Shown one piece after another: positions 11,168 to 63,184 of a DNA stretch of 64,000 nt (positions are counted from its first letter, which is position 1; each line of letters begins with the position of its first letter). The notes under the pieces were generated by a model. That model ran no database searches. It was not told the DNA's origin and was given only the letters and a program-made list of their open reading frames with translations. This stretch comes from Lentibacillus amyloliquefaciens. GTDB taxonomy: Bacteria > Bacillota > Bacilli > Bacillales > Amphibacillaceae. The position numbers and the translations under genes were made by a program. Location of the stretch: positions 3,794,285-3,858,284 of the forward strand of contig NZ_CP013862.1 of assembly GCF_001307805.1 (NCBI RefSeq), written 5' to 3'.

Positions 11168-12874
11168 TCATTCGGTTTTTTCTTTTACAAATTCGATGAC
11201 TTCTTCTGTGCTTCCCATTGATAACAGCTTGTCTTTATATGAAGCCATTTTTTCCTTCGACAGGCCACGGAGTTGTGTGCGTGCCGGCAGAATGGAAGTG
11301 GAGCTCATGCTGAATTCGTCAAGACCCAGGCCGAGAAGTGCCGGAATGGCAATCGAGTCTCCTGCCATTTCACCGCACATGCCGGTCCATTTGCCTTCTG
11401 CATGTGCCGCGTCAATGACTGTGCTGATTAAATTCAGAATCGCGGGATGGTATGGCTGATACAGGTAGGATACACGTTCATTCATCCTGTCAGCTGCCAT
11501 TGTATACTGAATCAGATCATTGGTGCCGATGCTGAAGAAATCGACTTCTTTGGCAAATTGTTTGGCAATCACAGCAGTTGATGGGATCTCTACCATAATA
11601 CCGACTTCGATGTTATCAGATACGCTTTTGTCTTCATTTTTTAAGTTTTGTTTTTCATCGAGCAGGATTCCTTTGGCCTGCCGGAATTCCTCAAGTGTTG
11701 CAATCATCGGGAACATGATTTTCAAATTGCCATGCACACTGGCTCTGAGTAACGCGCGTAATTGTGTGCGGAACACGTCCTCGTTTTCCAGGCAGAAGCG
11801 GATGGCCCGGAAGCCTAAAAATGGATTTAATTCCTCAGGCAAGTCAAGATAGCTTATTTCTTTGTCGCCGCCAACATCAAGCGTACGGACAACAACCGGC
11901 TTGTCTTCCATTTTTTCAAGCACTTTTTTGTAGGCATCGTACTGTTCGTCTTCTGTCGGCAGCTGGCTTTTTCCCATGTATAAAAATTCAGTGCGATATA
12001 AGCCAACGCCCTCACCGCCATTTGCAATCACGCCATCAACATCATCAGGCGTGCCGATGTTTGCTGCCAGTTCAACTTGTTCTTTATCAGCCGTGATTGT
12101 TGGCTCGTCTTTTAGTTTAGCCCATTCTTCTTTCTGCTTTTCGAAGTTTGCTTGTTTTTCTTTATATACCGCTATCTCATCTTCAGAAGGATTAACGATG
12201 ACATTCCCTTCAATGCCATCCACGATAACCATATCATCCTGTTTTACAGCATCTGTTATTTCTTTGGTCCCAACAACAGCAGGGATTTCCATTGATCGTG
12301 CCATAATCGCTGAGTGTGATGTCCTGCCTCCAATATCTGTTGCAAAGCCAAGAACAAATTGTCTGTTCAACTGTGCCGTATCGGATGGTGTTAAGTCGTT
12401 GGCGATAACGATGACCTCTTCATCAATCAGAGCCGGATTCGGTACTGTAACACCGAGCAGATGGGCCAGCACGCGTTTGGCAACGTCCTGGATATCGGCA
12501 GCACGTTCACGCATGTATTCATTATCCATGTTTTTGAACATATCGATGAACATATTGGTTGTTTCTTCCAAAGCAGCCTCAGCCATGACATTTTCGCCAG
12601 TTATTTTATCCTTTATTGGGTTAACCAGTTCCGGGTCATCCAGAACGAGCAAATGAGCGGAAAAAATTTGAGCGTGTTCATCTCCCATTTCTTTTTTCGT
12701 ATGTTCCCGAATCTTTTCAAGCTCTTGTTTTGCTGTTTCAAGCGCTTTCTCCAAGCGTTCGATCTCTGTATTTGGATTATCGATAGATTTTTTTTCATAC
12801 GTTAATTCCGGTGTAACAAGTTGATACGCTTTAGCGATTGCTATGCCACTAGATGCCGCAATTCCTTGAATCAT
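11168..12874 (-). CDS. ptsI: Phosphoenolpyruvate-protein phosphotransferase (PTS enzyme I)
   Basis: First enzyme of the sugar phosphotransferase system: takes phosphate from PEP and passes it to HPr. The phosphorylated His is in [15 protein letters not shown], the PEP-binding Arg/Glu region in [12 protein letters not shown], and the C-terminal catalytic Cys in [11 protein letters not shown]. 568 aa from ATG 12874, which aligns with the family N-terminus ([16 protein letters not shown]). A GTG at 12895 with GGAGC upstream would add seven residues. Normally ptsI follows ptsH; no ptsH is seen here. Confidence 0.96.
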
Positions 12875-56353: not shown

Positions 56354-57583
56354 ATGGCTACAGTTTATTTTGACGCAGGGCACACACGAAACACTTTCGA
56401 CCGCGGCGGTGGTAAAGGTGTTCGCAGGAACGGCCGTTCATATGAAGAACATGACAGCAATATTGACATAGCCGAACACGCGGAAAAGATTTTAAAATCA
56501 CATGGTTTTGATGTCCATATTACCAGTCAATCCTACGCAAGCAGTGAAAGTCTGACAAGCCGAACAAATGAAGCAAACCGCGCAAACGCTGACTTACTTG
56601 TATCCATTCACGCAAATGCGGGCGCGTCATCGGCTAATGGTGCATGTATTTTCCACTGGCCGACATCAGAGGACTTTGCTAATATATGGGCAAATCAGTG
56701 GGAAGATGCTGACACAGGTGTTGGTCTACATGGTAACGGTAAACACGCTGTCAGGGTTGGGACATGGACTAACCTCCACATGGTCAGAGAAGCGGCTATG
56801 CCTGCTTATTTGATTGAACATGGTTTCATGACTAACGACCATGACTTTGATTATATTTTTGGTAGTAAAAAAGACAGTTACCGCAAACAATGTGCTGAGG
56901 TAATCGCGAAATCTGTTTGTGAGTATTTTGGTGTGGATTATAAGGGAGGTAGTACCTATACCCCTAATCATCAAGAGAAGTCACACACAGTCAGTAATAA
57001 CGTTGATTGGGTAGGCACAGACGACAAAGGAAAAGAATTAATTATCACTGGTTCGTACGTCAATTATTACGACACTCAGCGCTGGAGCAATCCCACAGGC
57101 GCCAAGAAACGCGGCTACAAATGGGAAATTGATAACCTATACAAGGTCAATGGCAGCTTACAATATCGTGTGCAGGACGAAAACAACGATTTATATTTTA
57201 CCACTGGTCGCAGTGATCTTGTTAAGGTTGGTGGTGAGTATACAAAAGATGAATCAAGCGGTGGATCCAATCCTGCTCCGAAATCCGGTGAAGGAATCGT
57301 TGATTACATGAACAGAATCGGTATGGATTCATCATATAGCAATAGGTCAGACCTTGCTGCACAATACGGTATCAACGGTTATCAAGGAACTGCTTCACAG
57401 AATATGCAACTACTTGATTATATCAGCGGTTCAGGAAGTGGATCCGGCAAATCAATCAGTCAAATGGCTAACGAGATTATTCGAGGTGAACATGGCAGCG
57501 GTCATGCCAATAGAAGGCAGTCGCTTGGCATCAGTAAATCGCAGTACGAAAAAGTTAGAAAAGAAGTAAATAAGCGACTTTAA
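56354..57583 (+). CDS. Endolysin: N-acetylmuramoyl-L-alanine amidase (Amidase_3)
   Basis: 409 aa. Catalytic Zn domain 1-195 (FDAGHTRNTFDRGG, VSIHANAGA, YLIEHGFMTN). SH3-like region 205-295, a PlyG-type segment (DYMNRIGMDSSYSNRSDLAAQYGI) and a C-terminal CW_7/Cpl-7-like motif (ISQMANEIIRGEHGSGHANRRQSLGIS). Three wall-binding modules for one enzyme. Directly follows the holin. Confidence 0.93.
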   Translation: MATVYFDAGHTRNTFDRGGGKGVRRNGRSYEEHDSNIDIAEHAEKILKSHGFDVHITSQSYASSESLTSRTNEANRANADLLVSIHANAGASSANGACIFHWPTSEDFANIWANQWEDADTGVGLHGNGKHAVRVGTWTNLHMVREAAMPAYLIEHGFMTNDHDFDYIFGSKKDSYRKQCAEVIAKSVCEYFGVDYKGGSTYTPNHQEKSHTVSNNVDWVGTDDKGKELIITGSYVNYYDTQRWSNPTGAKKRGYKWEIDNLYKVNGSLQYRVQDENNDLYFTTGRSDLVKVGGEYTKDESSGGSNPAPKSGEGIVDYMNRIGMDSSYSNRSDLAAQYGINGYQGTASQNMQLLDYISGSGSGSGKSISQMANEIIRGEHGSGHANRRQSLGISKSQYEKVRKEVNKRL

Positions 57584-57642: not shown

Positions 57643-57678
57643 AGCCCGTGGGTGTGGAAAGCTCACGGGTGTTTTTTT
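57643..57678 (+). terminator. Terminator of the late operon
   Basis: GCCCGTG / CACGGGT stem with about 13-nt loop and TTTTTTT, 60 bp after the endolysin. The convergent minus-strand gene ends at the same point. Confidence 0.85.
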
Positions 57679-58384
57679 ATATTGCTTCAACCTCCGCCGG
57701 ACTATCCCAATCACACATTTCTGATTCATCTTCTAATGCCTGCCAGTAATCAACAACTTCCCATTTTACTTCATATTCATTACCTTCTTGGTCAATACCT
57801 AAAGCCCTGTAAATAGGTTTTTCATCCGCCGGACCGTCAATGTATGGCTGTTGTGATATAGCAATTTCTGTTTCGTTTTCTTTAACCGATCCGTTTTCGT
57901 TTTTAGCAAGTGTCATAACTGCCCAATCGTAATCTTCTTTGTTCACCTTGTGTGGGATATATCCTTCTCCGCCTTCGTTTACCAAGTTGTTATATCCTTT
58001 TTTCCATTCTTTAATTTCTTCTTTAGTCATCAGTTTTTCAGCGTTTCCAGCATCTTCAATTATTTTTTCTGCAACTTCGACTTCGCTAACTTCTTCTGTT
58101 TCCTGATTCAAAAGTTCTTGTTCCATTTCTTTAATCGTGTTATTGATTTCTTCTGCAACTTCCGATCCTTGTGTTTCTGCTTTACCTACAATTGATCTTT
58201 CACCAATGATTGTTGCTTTGCTTGCGTCGGTCACAATTTTTCCGTTTGGAGCAACGATTTCAACCGTGCTTTCCGCAATTGTTTCTTCACCGTATTTTTG
58301 TCCGTCTGCCACTTTATCCTGAACTTTCGTTTCAACTGTGATTTTCGCTGTTGCTTTGCCAAAGTTTACGTTTTTTACTAACAT
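57677..58384 (-). CDS. Unknown acidic protein of the right-end minus cassette
   Basis: 235 aa. N-terminal beta-like part (MLVKNVNFGKATAKITVETK, STVEIVAPNGKIVTDASKAT), a central acidic helical part (EINNTIKEMEQELLNQETEEVSEVEVAEKI) and an acidic C-terminus (ALEDESEMCDWDSPAEVEAI). No family recognised, no signal or membrane segment. ATG 58384 follows AAGGAGGAAT. Driven by its own palindrome-bearing promoter. Placed behind lysis genes on the opposite strand, a usual site for lysogenic accessory genes. Confidence 0.65.
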   Translation of the reverse strand: MLVKNVNFGKATAKITVETKVQDKVADGQKYGEETIAESTVEIVAPNGKIVTDASKATIIGERSIVGKAETQGSEVAEEINNTIKEMEQELLNQETEEVSEVEVAEKIIEDAGNAEKLMTKEEIKEWKKGYNNLVNEGGEGYIPHKVNKEDYDWAVMTLAKNENGSVKENETEIAISQQPYIDGPADEKPIYRALGIDQEGNEYEVKWEVVDYWQALEDESEMCDWDSPAEVEAI

Positions 58385-58432
58385 TTTAATTCCTCCTTTT
58401 TTTGTTTTTGCCTTCCCTTGATGTCTAACTAC

Positions 58433-58461
58433 ATTATAATACATGTATTAGATAGTTGCAA
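58433..58461 (-). promoter_or_regulatory. Palindrome-controlled promoter, copy 1
   Basis: On minus: TTGCAA (58456-58461), 17 bp, TATAAT (58433-58438). The 14-bp perfect palindrome TAATACATGTATTA (58437-58450) lies in the spacer/-10. About 60 bp around it match copy 2 at an offset of exactly 240 bp. Confidence 0.72.
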
Positions 58462-58469
58462 GGGGTAAA

Positions 58470-58640
58470 CTAAAATTCTTTTAACTTTTTTTCAATCAAT
58501 TCATTGAGTATTTCCAAATCGTCTTTTTCAGCGTATTTATTGATAAATGTCTTCGCAGTAGACCGATAAGAAAGTTTTCGTTTTTGTTCCTTGTTCTTAT
58601 CAGCCCATCTTTTGTTATACTCTTGTTGTTTATTTATCAT
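58470..58640 (-). CDS. Small basic protein of the right-end minus cassette
   Basis: 56 aa, Lys-rich and helical (MINKQQEYNKRWADKNKEQK, LEILNELIEKKLKEF). RBS GGAAGGGTGATT. Controlled by its own copy of the palindromic promoter. No family recognised; the size and charge would suit a nucleic-acid-binding or antidefence peptide, but that is inference only. Confidence 0.6.
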   Translation of the reverse strand: MINKQQEYNKRWADKNKEQKRKLSYRSTAKTFINKYAEKDDLEILNELIEKKLKEF

Positions 58641-58672
58641 TTAATCACCCTTCCTTGTTTGACTGTAACTAC

Positions 58673-58701
58673 ATCATAATACATGTATTAGGTAATTGCA
58701 A
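58673..58701 (-). promoter_or_regulatory. Palindrome-controlled promoter, copy 2
   Basis: On minus: TTGCAA (58696-58701), 17 bp, TATGAT (58673-58678), with TAATACATGTATTA at 58677-58690. Drives the 56-aa gene. Confidence 0.7.
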
Positions 58702-58730
58702 GGGGTAAGTCAAAACTTTTTTAATAAATT

Positions 58731-58916
58731 TTATTCATACAATTCCGTAACCTCACACCCCAACAATTCAGCCAATTTAACAGCCTTATCAAACGGAATC
58801 ATGCTCCGGCCATGCATCCAATTGGAAAGTGTATCTTTGTTTACACCTAACTTTTCTGCTATATATCCCTTCTTCAATCCACTTTCTTTTATCCGTTCAT
58901 CAATCAATAATTTCAT
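58731..58916 (-). CDS. Small XRE-family HTH regulator of the cassette
   Basis: 61 aa single HTH domain (GYIAEKLGVNKDTLSNWMHGRSMIPFDKAVKLAELLG then EVTELYE). ATG 58916 after GCAGGTGAT; ATG 58931 possible. Immediately upstream of the two palindrome-controlled genes, so it is the obvious candidate repressor of TAATACATGTATTA. Its own upstream region lacks that palindrome. Confidence 0.78.
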   Translation of the reverse strand: MKLLIDERIKESGLKKGYIAEKLGVNKDTLSNWMHGRSMIPFDKAVKLAELLGCEVTELYE

Positions 58917-59040
58917 TTTTATCACCTGCATTAATATTCCACGCTGATTAATAAAAATCCTTTAATAAAAATATATTTCCGCAATTTTTATGTATATTTT
59001 CCGTACAAACTGACTATACTATGAATACAACAGAATATAC

Positions 59041-59062
59041 AGATGCATATTGAGATGCATAT
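59041..59062. repeat. Tandem AGATGCATAT boxes upstream of the FtsK-like gene
   Basis: AGATGCATAT at 59041-59050 and 59053-59062, each with an ATGCAT palindrome core, 12 bp apart. ATATGCAT recurs near 59173 and GCATAT at the start codon. A TATACT -10 candidate is at 59015. The 298-bp gap 58917-59214 otherwise shows nothing. Confidence 0.5.
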
Positions 59063-59214
59063 CGAAATTCACATGCGCGTAATCCCCAAACCACTTTTAC
59101 CTTTCCCCTTTATTATGAATTATCGCTGATTGATTATTTCAATCTATCAAACTACTGATATAACAACATCGGAATATGCATTTGTATAAAGATGACATGA
59201 AGGGAGATTTGCAT

Positions 59215-60345
59215 ATGGATTTCGTTATTGGCGGGAGCTTGGCCGCATTTTCGATTTATGCTGCTGCTAAATGGCAGAAGTCCGATAAAGATAAAATACA
59301 GCATACGTTTCGTAATGTGGGTTACACCGTTAAAGATCATGAACCCAAATTATTTAAAACCCACAAATCAGATAACTCCACTCTTTACACTTATCATGTC
59401 CCATATGGTCTAATTGATGACGATGAATTAAACGTACTGGATAAAGTGTTAAATAAACCCGTCAATGTATCGTTTGTAAATGGCAAACTGCACATCAGAG
59501 TTTACAAAAATAAGATTCCAGTAAGAATTAAATATGATTGGAACAAAACCGATGACTGGACCGTTCCAATCGGTCAATCACACGATCAATTCATATCACA
59601 TGATTTTGATAAAATCCCACATATGGCCATATCCGGCATGACGCGTCAGGGGAAAACCGTACTGCTTAAACTTATCTTTTCACATCTTATTCATAATCAC
59701 CCTGATGACGCGGAATTTACAATCATTGATTTAAAAGGCGGGCTTGAATTTAACCGCTTCTCTAATCTGGAGCAAGTCAATGCGGTTGCAAGTGATGTAT
59801 TTGAGGCGAAAGAGGCACTCACAAGCGTTTTAAATCAAATAAGGAATGATATGTACTGTTTTAAATCAAAAGGCTATACAAACGTTTTAAACACTAATAT
59901 AAGCAATCGTAAATTTATCATCGTGGATGAAGGTGCAGAGCTTACACCAGGTTCTCACTTGTCAAAAGAAGAAAAGCAGGACTACCAATATTGCCAGAAT
60001 GCTTTATCAGAAATTGCAAGAGTTTCCGGGGCCTTGGGCTATCGTCTCATTTTCGCTACACAATACCCTACGGCTGATACATTACCGCGGCAAATCAAAC
60101 AAAATGCCGATGCTAAAATCAGTTTCCGGCTTCCAACTGAAACAGCTTCCCGTGTGGCTATTGATGAGAAGGGGGCGGAAACGCTGGCGAATGTAGGTAG
60201 GTGCATTTACCGCACACACGAACGGCGTGAAGTGCAATCTTTGTTTGTGGACGACAACGACATTAAGGAGAGGTTGAGTGTATATGATGCTCCAAGAGCG
60301 AAAGAAAACAGCGAGACACGAAAAGATTATGTCCAGTTTGGATGA
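59215..60345 (+). CDS. FtsK/SpoIIIE-type DNA translocase-like ATPase
   Basis: 376 aa. One N-terminal hydrophobic segment (FVIGGSLAAFSIYAAA), then an FtsK-type ATPase core: Walker A GMTRQGKT (about 141-148), IIDLKGGLEFNRF, Walker B FIIVDEGAEL, FATQYPTADTLPRQIKQNADAKISFRL. No gamma DNA-reading domain. Relatives occur in conjugative elements (TcpA/ConQ coupling proteins) and Bacillus phages. ATG 59215 after AAGGGAG. Confidence 0.85.
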   Translation: MDFVIGGSLAAFSIYAAAKWQKSDKDKIQHTFRNVGYTVKDHEPKLFKTHKSDNSTLYTYHVPYGLIDDDELNVLDKVLNKPVNVSFVNGKLHIRVYKNKIPVRIKYDWNKTDDWTVPIGQSHDQFISHDFDKIPHMAISGMTRQGKTVLLKLIFSHLIHNHPDDAEFTIIDLKGGLEFNRFSNLEQVNAVASDVFEAKEALTSVLNQIRNDMYCFKSKGYTNVLNTNISNRKFIIVDEGAELTPGSHLSKEEKQDYQYCQNALSEIARVSGALGYRLIFATQYPTADTLPRQIKQNADAKISFRLPTETASRVAIDEKGAETLANVGRCIYRTHERREVQSLFVDDNDIKERLSVYDAPRAKENSETRKDYVQFG

Positions 60346-60877
60346 ATTGACGTATGCCACGCGCCGACAATTGCAAGTCATTAATAACCTGAGCGGTGAC
60401 AGAAACGCTCACAGAATCCTTCACGATATGGAAAGAGATAGATTGATTTCAAGCATACGGAAAGAGCAGAAGATTTATTATCTGACCAATACAGGAAAAC
60501 AACAAATTGGCAGCAGTCAGGCCGAATTAAAGCAATCGTGGGTTACACATGTTTTGATGCGGAATGACCTCTATATCGAATTGGGTATGCCTGGTGATTG
60601 GCGCAAGGAAGTGCCTGCCAAAATTAATGGTGAAATGCTGCTGATACCAGATGCCATGTTCACACGGAATGGCGAAAGTCACTTTGTGGAGATTGACAAC
60701 AAGCAAAAGATGCAGACTAACATTGAGAAAATAAAAAAGTATAAAAAATTAAGTGATGCTGTATTCGGACAATTAAACCACACACCAACTTTAATATGGT
60801 ATTCGTTGTCTGATATTCGGAAAGAAAAATTAAAGTCAGCGTGTGAGAGGTATGGAGTTAAGTTTAAAATATATTGA
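60284..60877 (+). CDS. Replication-relaxation family protein
   Basis: About 197 aa. N-terminal winged helix (LDELTYATRRQLQVINNLSGDRNAHRILHDMERDRLISSIRK) and a C-terminal nuclease-like domain (GEMLLIPDAMFTRNGESHFVEIDNKQKMQTNIEKIKKY, with D and ExD/K residues). Matches the RepRel family often next to FtsK-like genes in plasmids and phages. Overlaps the FtsK-like gene; RBS AAGGAGAGG. Confidence 0.82.
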   Translation: MMLQERKKTARHEKIMSSLDELTYATRRQLQVINNLSGDRNAHRILHDMERDRLISSIRKEQKIYYLTNTGKQQIGSSQAELKQSWVTHVLMRNDLYIELGMPGDWRKEVPAKINGEMLLIPDAMFTRNGESHFVEIDNKQKMQTNIEKIKKYKKLSDAVFGQLNHTPTLIWYSLSDIRKEKLKSACERYGVKFKIY

Positions 60878-61873: not shown

Positions 61874-62030
61874 CTCCACCTAAATCCAAGATTTTGATGG
61901 AGCTTCCCTATTCACGGACGATAGCTTTGTTCTAAAGAACCGAGTCTTACATCATCTCCAAGGGCTTTGTTTATACTGATCGGACAGGACCTTGCCCTAC
62001 AGTTGGAACAAATTTATTTATGCAGTTGGA
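61874..62030 (-). ncRNA. Probable omega RNA (reRNA) at the tnpB 3' end
   Basis: Non-coding sequence from the end of tnpB to the right-end hairpin, about 140 nt on the minus strand. In this family the omega RNA scaffold overlaps the 3' part of tnpB and the element end, and the guide is read from flanking DNA. Position and terminal hairpin support it; the fold and guide (minus strand, below about 61870) are inferred. Confidence 0.5.
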
Positions 62031-63184
62031 CTCAGATCAAAAAGAGCCAGTCCAGCTGCTTCAATATTGATGGCCGCATTATGGTCGCGGTCTAAAATGG
62101 TCCCGCATGACTTGCATACATGGGTTCTGACGGACAGAGACTTTCTCACGCGCGCCTTACAGCCGGAACAGTCCTGACTGGTATAATGCGGTTTAATGCT
62201 TACGAGCTTGCCACCATTATTGTTGCACTTGTAGTCGAGCATATTACCAAAAGCACCCCAGCCTGCGTCATGAATCGACTTTGCCAAATGACGATTTTTC
62301 ACCATATTTCGGATCATCAGATCTTCTACAAAAACAAATTTATAAGTCTTCGAAAGCCGGTAACTTAGCTTATGGAGAAAGTCACGACGCTGATTTGCAA
62401 CTTTTATGTGCAGCTGCTGCACGTTTTGACGTTGTTTCTTCCAGTTATTTGAGCTTTTTTTCATGCGGGAAAGTTTCTTTTGCGCTCGCTTCAATTTCCT
62501 TTCTACTTTTAAGAGGAACTTTGGATTTTCGATTGTCGTCCCATCGGATAGGACGGCAAACTTTTGAATACCAACATCAATGCCTGTTGATTGGACAGGG
62601 AACTCAACCGTTTCGTTTACGTGTCTTTCAACACTGAATATCGCAAACCAACGATGACCCTGACGTTTGATGATGACTTGTTTCACTTTTCCTTCCAACG
62701 GGCGATGAAAATTCACATACACTGCGCCAAGCTTTGAAATAAGAAGATGATTGCTCTCGTCTAACGAAGCAGCGTAACGCACATCGCGTCGTTTGACTTC
62801 ACCGGTTGTCTTGTTTTTTACATGTCGATTTTCTATCCCAAATTGTGTAAATGTCAGTGAGTTATAATCTTTGTGTTTTTTGAGTTTTGGATAACGTGCA
62901 CGCCCTTCAAAAAAGTTCTTGTATGCGCGTTCCAGACGGAAGAATACCTCCTGCAATGGTTGCGACGGCATTGTCTTAAGAAATGGGATCTTTTGTTTAT
63001 CTGCTTTTTGCTGTTTTTGTAATTGCGTTCGGGACAGCCCCATCTGGTTCTTTTGGTAAAAACGCTGTTTATCCAAAAGAGCGGAATTGTACTGCTGACG
63101 ACAAATCGATAGCCAACTATCCAATAGTTGCATCTGTTCTTCGTTTGGAAACATTTCATATTTATAATTCATGCGCACCAGCAT
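62018..63184 (-). CDS. tnpB: TnpB RNA-guided endonuclease (IS200/IS605 OrfB)
   Basis: 388 aa. RuvC residues Asp203 (STGIDVGIQKFAV), Glu287 (FVFVEDLMI) and Asp365/367 (ILDRDHNAAINI) are present. The zinc ribbon C339-C342-C357-C360 (CSGC...CKSC) is complete. N-terminal wedge/REC region (YKYEMFPNEEQMQLLDSWLSICRQQYNSAL) is typical. An ancestor-type relative of Cas12 that cuts DNA next to a TAM guided by omega RNA. RBS GGCGGTGAC before ATG 63184. Appears intact. Confidence 0.93.
   Translation of the reverse strand: MLVRMNYKYEMFPNEEQMQLLDSWLSICRQQYNSALLDKQRFYQKNQMGLSRTQLQKQQKADKQKIPFLKTMPSQPLQEVFFRLERAYKNFFEGRARYPKLKKHKDYNSLTFTQFGIENRHVKNKTTGEVKRRDVRYAASLDESNHLLISKLGAVYVNFHRPLEGKVKQVIIKRQGHRWFAIFSVERHVNETVEFPVQSTGIDVGIQKFAVLSDGTTIENPKFLLKVERKLKRAQKKLSRMKKSSNNWKKQRQNVQQLHIKVANQRRDFLHKLSYRLSKTYKFVFVEDLMIRNMVKNRHLAKSIHDAGWGAFGNMLDYKCNNNGGKLVSIKPHYTSQDCSGCKARVRKSLSVRTHVCKSCGTILDRDHNAAINIEAAGLALFDLSPTA

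Follow-up and report, generated by a model that had tools for sequence, protein, structure and literature searches.

A minus-strand cassette of two genes, encoding proteins of 235 aa (P235) and 56 aa (P56), was found in the window (the whole 64-kb stretch of DNA analysed) between a lysin gene and a pair of FtsK/SpoIIIE-like and Replic_Relax genes, all three of which are on the plus strand. Promoter 2 reads into the P56 gene and promoter 1 into the P235 gene; a gene for an XRE-type HTH protein lies upstream. The layout, established computationally, is as follows.

56354-57583, plus strand: lysin gene (Amidase_3, family match), flank, convergent neighbour
57677-58384, minus strand: P235, ORF of 235 aa with two modules and no family over the cut-off; occupies the effector (acr) position and is a candidate anti-defence protein
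57890-58384, minus strand: N-terminal module of P235, about residues 1-165; relatives P0001, P0003 and P0002
57677-57871, minus strand: C-terminal module of P235, about residues 172-235 (..YIDG..DESEMCDW..); relatives L090-L094 and L215
58426-58484, no strand: control-region repeat, copy 1 (59-nt direct repeat)
58433-58461, minus strand: promoter 1, of the P235 gene, TTGCAA-N17-TATAAT, with candidate operator 58437-58450 (score 19)
58470-58640, minus strand: P56, 56 aa, Aca13-related by sequence comparison, phrog_2277; predicted operator-binding autoregulator (sequence comparison and model)
58666-58724, no strand: control-region repeat, copy 2 (59-nt direct repeat)
58673-58701, minus strand: promoter 2, of the P56 gene, TTGCAA-N17-TATGAT, with candidate operator 58677-58690 (18-mer score 17)
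58731-58916, minus strand: XRE-type HTH protein, 61 aa (66 aa if started at the upstream ATG, 58931); HTH_3, E 1.7e-10
59176-60345, plus strand: FtsK/SpoIIIE-like gene (family match), flank, divergent to XRE
60278-60877, plus strand: Replic_Relax gene (family match), flank, after the FtsK/SpoIIIE-like gene

An OrfB_IS605/TnpB-type gene was also seen near the prophage (62018-63184, minus strand).

A palindrome shared by two promoters

Two exact copies of the 14-bp palindrome TAATACATGTATTA are present at 58437-58450 and 58677-58690, spaced 240 nt apart. These were the only sites within 2 mismatches in the 64-kb window (0.42 expected); at this tolerance, at least two sites occurred in 6 of 100 shuffles. 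One palindrome lies inside each copy of the 59-nt repeat, whose copies are 86% identical at an offset of 240 nt. Each lies in the spacer of its minus-strand promoter and extends into the -10 element. The twin minus-strand TTGCAA-N17-TATRAT promoters with palindromes 240 bp apart, proposed in a sequence-only reading of this DNA, were thus confirmed. A simple promoter scan gave 8 sites versus 6.0 in shuffles, so that it is the 59-nt repeat and not the scan that makes the promoters notable. By operator score, promoters 1 and 2 ranked first and second on the minus strand of the 64-kb window.

Genome-wide, the exact palindrome was found four times: at the two window sites and at two positions close to the start of the contig. 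The latter duplicate the former, since the beginning of the contig repeats the end of the window. The contig start is identical to the window from 52593 on over its first 3412 bases, after which there is a small length difference, and is also identical over 3014 bases around the cassette; the coordinates suggest an overlap of ~11.4 kb, which is probably a terminal assembly overlap. The bare palindrome occurred in 13 of 159 other genomes of the family versus 8 of 159 for a reversed control. In its TTGCAA context it was confined, among the family genomes, to the source genome (G000) and the congener G050.

Association of the palindrome with P56

The sequence-only reading had suggested the XRE protein as the palindrome's binder. 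Its placement of a 61-aa XRE gene upstream of both cassette genes holds; the pairing of XRE with the palindrome is not supported. Scanning viral contigs for the palindrome together with TATRAT yielded 49 stretches, 40 of which encode P56 relatives and none of which encodes XRE. Two of the nine stretches without P56 (L054 and L077) contain too little downstream DNA to tell, and their contigs carry P56 relatives. The 49 stretches include many close copies and form 11 groups less than 80% alike around the palindrome; P56 was present in 6 of the 11 group representatives and absent from 5. Palindrome promoters without P56 were seen in L059, L080 and L084. The last two (at 12110 and 10368, respectively) are nearly identical; in both, a TTGACA promoter containing the palindrome stands ahead of a gene of 252 aa, and there is no P56 relative.

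Neither the palindrome nor P56 was found in any of 43 XRE-relative loci (0/43 each), and a divergent FtsK gene lay beside XRE in 19 of them. These relatives are only 22-57% identical to the window's XRE and were examined with flanks of at most 3 kb, which makes this the weaker half of the association test. The closest XRE relative with known surroundings (congener G050, 70% identity) is an exception, adjoining both palindromes and P56. When 160 P56 loci were taken (80 of 136 viral and 80 of 86 genomic), XRE gave one short partial match. We judged XRE to belong to the neighboring FtsK/replication module rather than to the cassette. The regulator of the palindrome is probably P56, to go by these patterns of co-occurrence, and its earlier assignment to XRE an error. 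Upstream of XRE, the window (58932-59175) and G050 (L006, near 760-830) nearly share CGGAAAATATACATAAAAATTRCGGAAA, an inverted-repeat-like element unlike the palindrome, which is a candidate XRE operator.

A perfect palindrome of length at least 14 was present within 700 nt upstream at 62 of 127 non-redundant P56 loci, versus 11.2 in dinucleotide shuffles. An 18-mer operator score of at least 18 was reached at 69 of 132 P56 loci versus 1.5 in shuffles (two-base blocks), and a score of at least 17 at 74 of 132 versus 3.5. For genome loci alone (n = 72), the corresponding values were 27 versus 0.6 and 31 versus 1.9; for viral loci alone (n = 54), 38 versus 0.9 and 38 versus 1.6. Score 17 was not reached at 58 of the 132 loci, chiefly genome loci (41/72). 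Among the 74 operators scoring at least 17, 66 have TTGA/TTGC in the preceding 16 nt; in 63, exactly 3 nt separate the end of the -35 hexamer from the 18-mer, as in the window. Both the scoring of operators and the residue groups used below were devised after the first palindromes were known; the shuffle controls, not the thresholds, therefore carry the weight. Because palindrome-scan proteins seeded the search alignment (3 of the 8 proteins in A3) and several viral contigs are in both sets, greater independence attaches to the genome loci in this operator-P56 association, which the computation bears out.

Relationship of P56 to Aca13 and covariation with the operator

Residues 3-54 of P56 matched residues 90-141 of AcrIIA32 chain 8ye6_B ("A32") with E 6e-7, the sole chain matched among PDB sequences. 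We take Zheng et al. 2024 to be the structure paper for this chain. P56 belongs to phrog_2277, a PHROGs family of unknown function. No Pfam domain, HTH included, was found in P56, which thus departs from acr-aca loci whose regulator carries an HTH domain. Its AlphaFold monomer model has three helices (pLDDT 92), of which helix 2 comprises residues 17-36; Foldseek comparison of the model with the PDB gave no match at E ≤ 0.001. The window's P56 as scan query found no relative in viral contigs.

In the passages available of Song et al. 2022 (PMC8934645), AcrIIA32 is described as a "fusion with Aca13" and AcrIIA32.1 as being without Aca13. Because the fusion is stated there and an AcrIIA32-like protein covers residues 1-88 alone, residues 90-141 evidently correspond to the Aca13 part. 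P56, being homologous to these C-terminal 52 residues in the comparison with AcrIIA32, is therefore related to the Aca13 family. Relatives of P56 have Acr neighbors in the same orientation (L283/Javan213, and 10 of 160 P56 loci with AcrIIA2/3/4-like genes nearby), as expected of that family, and an inverted repeat lies inside the core promoter here, as in acr-aca loci. The earlier suggestion of an Acr/Aca-like locus is supported both by this relationship of P56 to Aca13 and by a Streptococcus phage in which an AcrIIA32-like gene follows the same arrangement. AcaFinder omitted Aca13 on the grounds of a missing HTH and a lack of validation; PMC9410906 covers ten Aca families, with no mention of Aca13 in its available passages. 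The available passages, and the titles and abstracts listed for open-licence papers, describe no Aca13 operator.

A palindrome could be assigned in 59 of 140 P56 loci, and its center varied with residues 21-32 of the P56 relative. TATGCATA was paired with the motif YLS[DN]RSR (n = 9), TATCGATA with RYLRNRST or related sequences (n = 12), TAGTACTA with KY[IT]SARSR (n = 9), and TACATGTA with NYLKSRSA and others (n = 26, the window included); the other 3 loci had other centers. Mutual information with the operator core was highest at residues 17, 21, 24, 25 and 28 (z 4.9-6.7 for 41 non-redundant pairs, with label shuffles that ignore relatedness). In the AlphaFold model these residues form one face of predicted helix 2.

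Leave-one-out prediction was performed with residues 22, 24, 25 and 28, picked from the core/residue table, and with 43 other positions as control. With all relatives allowed, the motif gave 18.0 of 36 versus 18.3 for the other positions. With relatives more than 70% identical excluded, the values were 16.3 versus 11.0; for more than 60%, 6.8 versus 3.4; and for more than 55%, 8.0 versus 3.8. The covariation of helix 2 with the operator is detected computationally, and the signal partly reflects phylogeny.

P235, the proposed device and known systems

No family over the cut-off was found for P235 in Pfam, NCBIfam (only DUF3461, E 0.13 and 0.8), PHROGs, PADLOC or PDB sequences, and no homology to known Acr proteins was found. 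Structural, defence and known Acr roles for P235 were accordingly rejected. The AlphaFold model is weak (pLDDT 67) and gave no Foldseek match at E ≤ 0.001. Six relatives of P235 were found, and the protein has two modules. P0001 and P0003, 161-aa proteins encoded on short contigs, consist almost wholly of the module formed by its first 165 residues; in P0002 this module is joined to a different C-terminus with a weak HTH_59 match, below the cut-off. The last 64 residues recur as 70-92-aa proteins in five viral contigs (L090-L094). In L215 the C-module is fused behind a P56 relative (C-module 46% over 63 residues, E 2e-20; P56 part 53% over 51), and L216 has the same fusion. The L215 fusion locus holds two TACTACATGTAGTA sites and, by reading, adjoins holin- and lysin-like ORFs on the other strand; its C-module had no match in known phages. 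A protein of Salinivibrio phage SMHB1 that resembles the C-module (34.6% over 81 residues) was retained as a distant lead only.

Several neighbors of these relatives were noted. In L215 (2484-2891) the first twin operator is followed by the gene for an acidic 135-aa protein that has no Pfam match, and a similar-looking protein lies beside the C-module gene in L094 (5253-5777). In L093 (5124-5513) the C-module is beside a Phage_Gp111 protein, with look-alikes in L091 and L025.

The same twin-promoter layout was seen elsewhere. Congener G050 has a palindrome promoter, a ~90-aa gene, a P56 relative, a second palindrome promoter and a 91-aa gene; the last resembles the P235 C-module by eye, and the P235 searches did not report it. 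The comparison that carries most weight is Streptococcus phage Javan213 (L283, L302), which has a ATAATACATGTACTAT promoter, two small genes, a P56 relative, a second such promoter and a 95-aa gene matching residues 1-88 of AcrIIA32 (E 1.3e-18). Phage 700P1 has a 141-aa AcrIIA32-type fusion between two promoters sharing TTGACTTTTTAACGTACATGTACTATAAT, and reads against the lysin gene as here. AcrIIA2/3/4-like genes were found near P56 relatives in 10 further loci, closely related by look, which brings loci with an AcrIIA2/3/4/32-like gene within the DNA fetched to 11 of 160; other Acr families were sought in 39 of 129 listed neighbors and in four long P56 proteins. In many P56 loci, including L007, L008 and L041, two peptides of ~33-62 aa, membrane-spanning by look, precede the P56 relative.

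We consider it likely that the cassette is an autoregulated prophage anti-defence device of the acr-aca kind, with P56 as regulator and P235 as effector. P56 would bind the palindrome in its own promoter and that in the P235 promoter, and would silence both promoters by occluding their spacer and -10 element. Upon phage entry into a cell without P56, both promoters would fire; as P56 accumulated, expression would be capped, leaving a low level in the lysogen. P235, which occupies the place of the AcrIIA32-like gene (cf. Javan213), would inhibit a host defence. We infer binding, repression and timing, like the function of P235, from these comparisons.

Binding of the palindromes by P56 and repression of both promoters is the half of this proposal that the sequence comparisons make very probable. 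Were XRE the repressor on the palindromes, with P56 and P235 as the genes regulated, its adjoining position on the same strand and the XRE beside matching palindromes in G050 would be explained, and relatives as distant as the 43 palindrome-less ones may differ in binding specificity. However, the absence of the palindrome and of P56 from all 43 XRE-relative loci, the divergent FtsK gene beside XRE in 19 of them, the absence of XRE from the 49 palindrome stretches, and the different inverted-repeat-like element upstream of it, common to G050, make this highly implausible. A host regulator encoded elsewhere might also bind the palindrome, P56 being a co-transferred passenger or effector. The lack of a Pfam HTH in P56, the AT-rich operator overlapping the promoters, and the palindrome in the TTGACA promoter of L080 and L084 without P56 are consistent with such a regulator; but from genus to genus the operator core varies together with the P56 residues of one helix face, and P56 genes have operators upstream even where the rest of the operon differs, so we regard it as improbable.

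The role of P235 is more evenly balanced. P235 is a candidate anti-CRISPR protein by its position and by the fusion. Regulation of the cassette by P56, with P235 serving in ordinary lysogenic conversion or phage physiology rather than in anti-defence, has a probability somewhat short of even: P56 relatives occur in operons with membrane-spanning-looking small peptides, AcrIIA2/3/4/32-like genes are present in only a small part of the P56 loci, and of Cas1 and Cas9, the two proteins sought, neither was over the cut-off in the host genome (one weak 21-bit match). By contrast, the layout matches that of the AcrIIA32-like locus, and the fusion of the C-module to a P56 relative parallels that of AcrIIA32 to Aca13. 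By analogy, inhibition of a host defence, possibly CRISPR-Cas, would be the most likely function of P235, and we give this anti-defence half slightly better than an even chance. Among 12 genomes of the genus, Cas1 was over the cut-off in 5 and Cas9 in 1. Because the host is without Cas1 or Cas9 over the cut-off, P235 may act on a system other than Cas9 or on a different kind of defence.

A broader proposal, to which we give an even chance, is that phrog_2277 comprises widespread non-HTH autoregulators of anti-defence and moron cassettes in Firmicutes prophages, which would read a promoter palindrome by one helix face with a code readable from sequence, and that both P235 modules are new anti-defence domains, one of them fused also to the regulator. 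Aca13 was named by association; a candidate operator and a covarying helix face make its role directly testable. The DNA pattern combined with the protein profile could find anti-defence genes in Firmicutes prophages beyond the known Acr families, and P235 and its two modules are concrete candidates to test for such activity.

AcrIIA2/3/4 islands are described from Listeria prophages. The islands found here resemble the cassette in having P56 relatives, most with a TATAATACATGTATTATA promoter, that are closely followed on the same strand by AcrIIA3- and AcrIIA2-like or AcrIIA4-like genes, at a distance of ~120-350 nt where inspected. They differ in that the operon there opens with two membrane-spanning-looking peptides, whereas none was seen in the window. 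HTH-type acr-aca operons (the ten Aca families of PMC9410906) likewise have an inverted repeat in the core promoter and a small operon-coded regulator; P56, however, has no HTH, and in the window the regulator gene is flanked by two separate operator-promoters in place of a single promoter for the operon. The AcrIIA32/aca13 loci of Streptococcus phages (PMC8934645; Javan213, 700P1) share with the cassette an Aca13-related protein flanked by near-identical palindromic promoters beyond a lysin gene, and the TACATGTA core. The gene after the second promoter is unrelated, P235 here versus the AcrIIA32 domain there. In Javan213 the P56 relative is third behind its promoter, whereas P56 is first here, and Javan213 reads with the lysin gene, whereas the window and 700P1 read against it.
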